62,162 nucleotides of DNA from an uncultured Bacteroidales bacterium (GTDB lineage Bacteria; Bacteroidota; Bacteroidia; Bacteroidales; UBA932): contig CALVBH010000019.1 of the NCBI GenBank assembly GCA_944325765.1, positions 1-62,162 of the forward strand, given 5' to 3'. Positions 31,369 through 32,913 of this stretch are shown piece by piece. Under the pieces are notes generated by a model. That model was not told where the DNA came from. It searched no databases and worked only from the letters and a program-made list of their open reading frames with translations. Every line of letters begins with the position of its first letter. Positions within the stretch are counted from its first letter, which is position 1. The position numbers and the translations under genes are program-made.

Positions 31369-32913
31369 ATGGAAAATTTGGAGCTCAACGAACAGGAGCG
31401 CAACAGGCGCGAAGCATTGGGGAAACTCAGGGAACTGGGCATAGACCCATACCCGGCAGCACTTTACCCGGTAAACGCGACTGCACAGAAGATAAAGGAT
31501 GAATATGACCCTGAGAAAGGGAATCTGGCCGATGTCGTGATTGCAGGAAGAATCATGTCCCGCAGGATTATGGGAGCGGCATCATTCATCGAACTCCAGG
31601 ACGAGACCGGAAGAATCCAGGTCTACATCAAACGCGATGAAATCTGCCCGAGAGAAGACAAGACCATGTACAATACAGTCTTCAAGAAACTTCTCGACAT
31701 CGGCGACATCATAGGCATCAGAGGCTTCGCTTTCATCACCCAGACCGGACAGCTGTCAGTCCATGCAAAGGAACTCACCCTGCTCAGCAAGTCGCTGAGG
31801 GTACTCCCTATCGTCAAGGAAAAGGACGGAGAGGTATATGACGCGTTCTCTGATCCGGAACTGAAATACAGGCAGAGATACGTGGATCTGATTGTCAACC
31901 CGCAGGTACGCCAGACTTTCGTGATGAGGAGCAAAATCATTTCCACGATGCGGGAGTACTTCAACGCCGCAGGCTGCTTAGAGGTGGAAACCCCTATTCT
32001 CCAGTCCATTCCGGGCGGTGCGACGGCAAGACCGTTCATCACGCATCACAATGCCTTGGACATAGACCTTTACCTCAGGATTGCCAACGAGCTCTATCTC
32101 AAGCGTCTGATAGTCGGAGGCTATTCCGGAGTCTACGAATTCGCCAAGGATTTCCGCAACGAGGGGATGGACAAGACCCACAATCCGGAATTCACCTGCA
32201 TGGAGATATATGTAGCCTACAAGGACTATATCTGGATGATGGAATTCGTGGAGAAGATGCTGGAGAAAGTGGCTCTTACCCTCCACGGCACTACGGAGGT
32301 GACCATCGGCGAGCGGAAGGTGGATTTCAAACCTCCTTACCGCCGCCTTCCGATGCTCGAGGCCATAAAGGAATACGCCGGAGTGGACATAGCCGGAATG
32401 GACGAGACGCAACTCCGCGAGACCTGTGCGAAACTTAACGTTCCTGTGACCCCGGAAATGGGAGAAGGGAAGTTGATCGACGCCATCTTCGGAGAATACT
32501 GCGAAAGCCATCTCGTGCAGCCTACCTTCATCACGGACTACCCTGTTTCGATGTCTCCACTGACCAAGAGGCACCGCAGCAACCCGGCTCTTACCGAGCG
32601 TTTCGAGCTTTTCGTCTGCGGATAGGAACTGGCCAACGCCTACAGCGAGCTGAATGACCCGATCGACCAGCTGGAAAGGTTCCAGGACCAGTTGAAGCAG
32701 CGTGAGCACGGCGATGACTAGGCCATGTACATCGATATGGACTTCGTCCGCGCCCTCGAATACGGCATGCCTCCTACATCGGGTATGGGTATGGGAATCG
32801 ACCGTCTGACCATGTTCATGACGAACTCCCCTACCATCCAGGATGTCCTCTTCTTCCCGCAGATGCGCCCGAAGAAAGCCCAGGGGCAGGACTCCGAAAA
32901 GAAGGAAGAATAA
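31369..32913 (+). pseudogene. lysS: Lysyl-tRNA synthetase with two in-frame amber codons
   Basis: The reading frame encodes class II LysRS: an OB anticodon-binding domain, motif 2 [15 protein letters not shown], and motif 3 [11 protein letters not shown]. It is interrupted by TAG at 32623-32625 (in [16 protein letters not shown]) and TAG at 32719-32721 (in [12 protein letters not shown]). There is no frameshift, and the sequence between and after the stops is well conserved to TAA at 32911. Family sequences carry Lys/Arg and Glu at these two positions, so single first-base changes (AAG and GAG to TAG) explain both. Without readthrough the product is 418 residues and lacks motif 3. This is a pseudogene, an error, or a recoded gene. 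Confidence 0.85.

Follow-up and report, generated by a model that had tools for sequence, protein, structure and literature searches.

In-frame TAG codons in the lysyl-tRNA synthetase and release factor 1 genes of an uncultured Bacteroidales bacterium: a possible link between UAG readthrough and two essential translation genes

Results

A full-length lysS carries two in-frame TAG codons

The window analysed here, the whole of contig C19 (62,162 bases), belongs to a draft assembly of 2.27 Mb in 107 contigs, 88% complete and with 1.65% contamination. Its forward strand carries lysS, the gene for a class II lysyl-tRNA synthetase (LysRS), which runs from an ATG at 31369 to a TAA at 32911-32913 (31369..32913; 514 codons before the TAA) and holds two in-frame TAG codons, at 32623..32625 (codon 419) and 32719..32721 (codon 451). 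Counted along an alignment, these positions correspond to Arg420 and Glu452 of E. coli LysU. Upstream of the gene, at 31288..31319 on the same strand, a putative promoter motif of the Bacteroidota type, TTTG-N20-TATTTTTG, can be picked out by eye.

In whole-genome profile searches in which stops were read through, this was the single full-length lysS, matching TIGR00499 over positions 1-496 with 615.8 bits against a cut-off of 427.6, with both TAGs inside the match: by its profile a complete class II LysRS, by its frame an interrupted one. The three pieces between the stops match TIGR00499 positions 1-411, 413-443 and 445-496, and since these are consecutive, each TAG replaces one residue; a frameshift or insertion is thereby ruled out. 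The initial annotation of this locus had described both codons as lying in frame within lysS and the gene as free of frameshifts, and on both counts it holds, with conserved LysRS sequence on either side of the stops. The first TAG precedes what are presumably the lysine-binding residues (near 424-428) and motif 3 of the enzyme, so a 418-residue product ending there should be inactive.

Could another gene supply the enzyme? A second lysS, of class I or class II, had been named as a check, and none turned up in whole-genome family searches of this 88% complete assembly. The class I LysRS family gave zero matches across the genome, and the remaining matches to TIGR00499, four in number, are all partial, lie on two contigs and are taken to be AspRS and AsnRS.

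Both sites are invariant in the related lysS genes compared. In the 29 nearest relatives by DNA, selected by a search that matched 387 of 400 genomes, a Lys codon stands at the first site and a Glu codon at the second in every case, in keeping with the Lys/Arg and Glu originally assigned to them; two of these 29 rows carry stops elsewhere in the query frame, one in the last codons (L073) and one in a gapped alignment (L083). Further loci agree (Lys in 80/80 and Glu in 79/79, from alignments kept for 81 loci: 80 named relatives and the closest one, G103). The named relatives are mostly uncultured Bacteroidales, with Candidatus Cryptobacteroides accounting for 3 of the 80, which suggests that this genome belongs to the Cryptobacteroides group. 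Across the genus, no in-frame stop was found in lysS of the 52 other members that score over the cut-off. Eight weaker rows of relatives in the LysRS profile search, presumed to be AspRS, each contain one TAA or TGA, which may precede the start of the gene, as these matches begin at profile positions 27-35.

The 3' part of lysS, a recent exchange or a mosaic, appears constrained

Identity to G103 along lysS, taken per 100 bases, is 71-88% at 31300-31799, 90% at 31800-31899 and 95-99% from 31900 on. With a 3' tract (31870..32912, forward strand) at about 97%, against 76% (4002 columns) and 74% (870 columns) in the two stretches aligned outside lysS, this part of the gene would be either a recent exchange by recombination or a mosaic that arose in assembly. 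The genes flanking lysS are not alike in the two genomes.

Over the whole gene, TAGs aside, 97 codon differences from G103 are synonymous and 11 non-synonymous, 8 of the 11 falling in the 5' part; one of them, at 31651, involves a change that no other genome compared here has. Changes were also assigned to the branch leading to this genome, with 4 of the 29 aligned relatives omitted for gaps. From 31870 on, that branch carries 17 synonymous changes, 1 missense and 2 nonsense. Taken together, the possible single changes in the tract would be synonymous in 21.5% of cases, missense in 74.7% and nonsense in 3.9%. At least two nonsense changes among three non-synonymous ones has P ~0.007 under random change, whereas two nonsense over all 20 changes is unremarkable (P ~0.18). 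Judged by these counts, the sequence 3' of the TAGs is still constrained, and the pattern of change looks unlike that of random error or decay.

The only prfA found is interrupted by the stop codon that its product reads

Release factor 1 (RF1) is the factor that reads UAG, and prfA was therefore examined for stops as well. It lies outside the window, on the minus strand of contig C36 (3563-4639), and is interrupted in frame by a single TAG, which is codon 264 of 361. The family search found prfA once in the genome (TIGR00019, 497 bits over positions 1-358, cut-off 423.25), and the full-length match, together with a GGQ motif at codon 236, identifies it as RF1; no second copy was found by that genome-wide search of the 88% complete assembly. 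The TAG falls 28 codons past the start of GGQ, at a site that corresponds to Arg261 of E. coli RF1 (counted along the alignment of the G103 protein) and that holds Lys in 14 and Arg in 1 of the 15 relatives aligned. The frame is identical on both sides of the codon, with no programmed frameshift site around it. The gene thus contains, in frame, a stop that its own product recognises, as a self-limiting release factor would.

As in lysS, the sequence beyond the stop is well kept. Compared with G103, the 263 codons before the TAG differ by 89 synonymous and 20 non-synonymous changes, and the 97 codons after it by 41 and 2. Of 30 prfA loci, 16 passed the anchor motif, and private changes were judged against 15 relatives; at the columns invariant in those 15, prfA has no private missense change. 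Its identity to the three nearest relatives is uniform along the gene, with no sign of a mosaic.

Interruption of this gene is rare. Among the 134 other members of the genus whose prfA exceeds the cut-off, in-frame stops are absent, so the TAG itself is not conserved in relatives; two weak rows below the cut-off in the genus survey do show a stop. At the level of the order (393 members sampled, 363 over the cut-off), the matches listed include one TGA and no TAG, the TGA being a single in-frame codon in the prfA of another order member (G669, C1:37004-38077). By these counts, an interrupted prfA would coincide with an interrupted lysS by accident in about 1% of cases or less, and such a coincidence is unlikely. 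The three TAGs, two in lysS and one in prfA, are shared by none of the relatives examined and belong to one genome only.

The initial reading of the locus, which was right about the lysS stops and their frame and about TAG as a stop without reassignment (see below), had missed the TAG in prfA. With prfA also interrupted by TAG, the balance moves from an ordinary pseudogene towards an effect specific to UAG. Nonetheless, the stops could be true nonsense mutations in broken genes, with functional lysS and prfA genes lying in the portion that the assembly lacks or on an unbinned plasmid or phage, or with the sequence coming from a failing minor lineage. About 12% of the genome is missing and several tRNA genes are absent from it, and in-frame stops are described as widespread in bacterial genes and mostly short-lived in the available excerpts of Belinky et al. 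2021 (PMC7918605). The cases treated there resemble ours in that the stops lie within genes under purifying selection; they differ in that those excerpts report no major functional trend save an excess of mobile elements, and describe no link between RF1 and another essential gene. We consider this explanation rather unlikely: no second copy of either gene was found in the 88% complete assembly, and RF1 as the second broken gene would go unexplained. Relaxed selection, moreover, predicts missense changes and indels, and neither the lysS 3' tract nor prfA after its TAG shows that signature, both genes appearing constrained before and after their stops.

No other convincing interrupted gene in the scanned part of the genome

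A 7-state coding HMM, for which the window and 20 stretches from the same genome served as training data, was run across 1,816,142 bases (80% of the assembly, with 1337 open coding stretches 80 or more codons long) in search of stops that interrupt coding. Four rounds flagged 30, 27, 17 and 19 TAGs, a few loci being counted twice, and every one was inspected; TAA and TGA codons were all inspected in the first round and, in the other 100 stretches, where no other stop lay nearby. The scan flagged all three known sites. On inspection by eye, nothing else in the scanned 80% made a convincing case for an interrupted gene, and the remaining flagged stops look like gene ends with another gene following.

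Five doubtful TAGs were searched with NCBIfam, and none had a single family spanning the stop. One has unlike families on its two sides (CdaA and MutS2), at another the upstream match reaches the last position of its family profile just ahead of the stop, and at a third a family starting at profile position 2 begins shortly downstream; of the last two, one has an upstream match only, and for the other the upstream piece alone was searched. Whole-genome searches with GTP_EFTU (11 matches) and tRNA-synt_1 (6 matches) likewise gave no stops inside. Searches by tblastn with open reading frames of relatives covered little, and apart from the lysS sites their output was dominated by antisense frames; a stricter filter on the scan retained one of the two lysS sites and was not used. 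A TAG-dense recoded phage region was considered and rejected, as none was seen in the scanned 80%.

These results bear on a rival explanation, that the three TAGs are an artefact of assembly or consensus, either base errors or variants of a minor strain. The genome is a single one, in a draft of 107 contigs that is 88% complete, and the lysS 3' tract, 97% identical to the gene of another species, could have arisen as a mosaic in a mixed assembly; moreover, the available text of PMC12421855 leaves open whether prfA pseudogenes in single genomes, 34 in its survey, are real or possibly sequencing errors. Yet random change would bring about 19 missense changes for each nonsense (0.747 vs 0.039), whereas the lysS 3' tract shows a single missense and prfA no private missense at invariant columns. 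Two errors in lysS and one in the RF1 gene, with nothing else convincing in 80% of the genome, would also make an odd pattern, and the even identity of prfA to its nearest relatives gives no hint of a mosaic there. An artefact is a contender, if an unlikely one. An alteration made on purpose, in an engineered or spiked record, is a very unlikely origin. With three TAGs standing alone in two essential translation genes and no other damage seen, the record does resemble a designed amber dependence, but the rest of the assembly has the appearance of an ordinary draft of a gut bacterium.

TAG is an ordinary stop codon, and the tRNA searches gave no CUA anticodon

In 1.47 Mb of this genome, TAG terminates 164 of 802 model genes (20.4%), compared with 23 of 106 gene ends at the nearest 11 related loci and 26.1% of 700 at all 80. 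TAG is still an ordinary stop here, and there is no genome-wide reassignment; the initial annotation had judged as much from a handful of genes. One of the gene ends in question is that of prfB (contig C36, stretch L252 18161-19279, minus strand), which terminates in TAG, a codon read by RF1; prfB has no stop inside its match, and no in-frame UGA frameshift device was seen at its start. A backup stop lies within 10 codons after 28% of TAG ends, compared with 43% of TAA and 41% of TGA ends.

Across the whole genome, 34 tRNA genes exceed the cut-off and none has the anticodon CUA, nor did ARAGORN add one on 120 stretches. A CUA tRNA had been proposed as a check on suppression; because genes for the Trp, Ile, Asp and Asn tRNAs are likewise missing from the set, the lack of one for CUA is weak evidence. 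At a relaxed threshold three weak matches appear, on C91, C48 and C63. The first (C91:796-836) was rejected since it overlaps the tmRNA gene, and the other two are called as tRNAs by neither ARAGORN nor Rfam. Of these, C63:58560-58636 (13.6 bits) has a T-arm-like stretch and a CCA end, and may represent the 3' end of a tRNA gene that was interrupted or degraded; C48:431-487 (23.5 bits) has what reads by eye as a CAT anticodon, together with damage in its 5' part, and is perhaps the remnant of an integration site. The adjacency of tRNA-Lys(CUU) and tRNA-Lys(UUU) was also considered as a clue and set aside, as the two genes are likewise adjacent in all 8 of the related loci that were scanned, out of 20 fetched.

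That TAG has been reassigned to an amino acid, or is undergoing reassignment, is the least credible reading, and an extremely improbable one. Sense-position TAGs in conserved genes alongside an interrupted RF1 gene would suit it, as would the slightly lower share of TAG among stops relative to the pooled relatives (20.4% vs 26.1%). A reassigned code would leave TAG absent or depleted as a stop, and that is not what we see: its use at gene ends is akin to that in the nearest relatives, and this, together with the lack of any other sense TAG in the scanned 80%, leads us to reject a code-wide change. The tRNA search, which found no CUA anticodon in an incomplete tRNA set, adds weak evidence against it.

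Discussion

What might three TAG codons do in the only lysS and the only prfA that we could find? Our preferred explanation, which we put forward tentatively, is that UAG is leaky in this strain, that RF1 limits itself through the UAG inside its own gene, and that LysRS is tied to the leak. The three TAGs would be real, and would at times be read through. With a UAG inside prfA, more RF1 would mean less full-length RF1, a negative feedback that would keep RF1 low and UAG leaky; LysRS, made only by ribosomes that pass both UAGs of lysS, would then track the same leak. The reader of UAG could be a near-cognate tRNA, or perhaps an amber suppressor tRNA missing from the assembly; the initial annotation had considered a suppressor that might insert Gln. 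What the sequence shows is the stops themselves, the lack of them in the relatives examined, conserved sequence beyond them, TAG in use at gene ends and, in the scanned 80%, no further gene convincingly broken by a stop; readthrough, RF1 feedback and the coupling of LysRS are what we infer.

The control of RF2 through an in-frame UGA in its own message is the textbook case of such an arrangement. The prfB frameshift system and the prfA described here are alike in that a release factor gene holds a stop that its product recognises, and that could limit its own synthesis (PMC12421855). They differ in that the present case concerns RF1 and UAG, the stop lies about three quarters of the way into the gene and not near its start, no frameshift is involved, and the arrangement is known from one genome. 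The available text of the same survey covers RF2 autoregulation and states that the equivalent is yet to be demonstrated for prfA. Among the open-literature matches listed, we found no report of RF1 autoregulation by an in-frame UAG, or of TAG recoding in this group.

For the reading of UAG itself there are precedents in E. coli. In strains without RF1, endogenous tRNAs reportedly translate the codon as Gln, Tyr and Trp (PMC4434889, as excerpted), and Gln is the most frequent outcome in an excerpt of another report (PMC13103966). RF1-deficient and amber-suppressor strains thus resemble the situation proposed here, in that a lack of RF1 lets endogenous or suppressor tRNAs decode an in-frame UAG, and by analogy they may serve as precedent for the reading step only. 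They are, however, engineered: RF1 was removed only after TAG had been replaced at the ends of essential genes, initially with a UAG-reading tRNA supplied (PMC4434889, same excerpt), whereas the present genome still terminates genes at TAG and has yielded no suppressor. A second comparison is offered by gut phages that use code 15, in which TAG encodes Gln; according to the available parts of the reports (PMC8346664, PMC9523058), UAG is decoded in gut communities, in one case with a Prevotella host. Unlike those phages, this genome showed neither a TAG-dense coding region in the 80% that was scanned nor, in our tRNA searches, a suppressor tRNA.

Several considerations count against a leaky UAG. 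With 164 genes ending in TAG, prfB among them, and backup stops behind only 28% of TAG ends, fewer than behind the other two codons, a strong leak at UAG throughout the genome would come at a cost. For LysRS, whose essential gene has two UAGs in succession, the level of readthrough would need to be high. Finally, a freely readable TAG should give rise to sense TAGs in dispensable genes, and none was seen in the scanned 80%. Does the arrangement then amount to a natural circuit, in which RF1 represses its own completion and the sole LysRS rides on the same leak, so that lysyl-tRNA supply and the strength of UAG termination are linked in one strain, perhaps as an early step towards the reassignment of UAG? 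We regard this more specific proposal as doubtful.

If the three codons are an artefact, they warn that a pair of linked essential genes with isolated TAGs can mimic biology. If the leak is real, this bacterium would possess a natural feedback loop on RF1 and a stop codon that is neither fully stop nor sense, a state that would bear on how genetic codes come to be reassigned.
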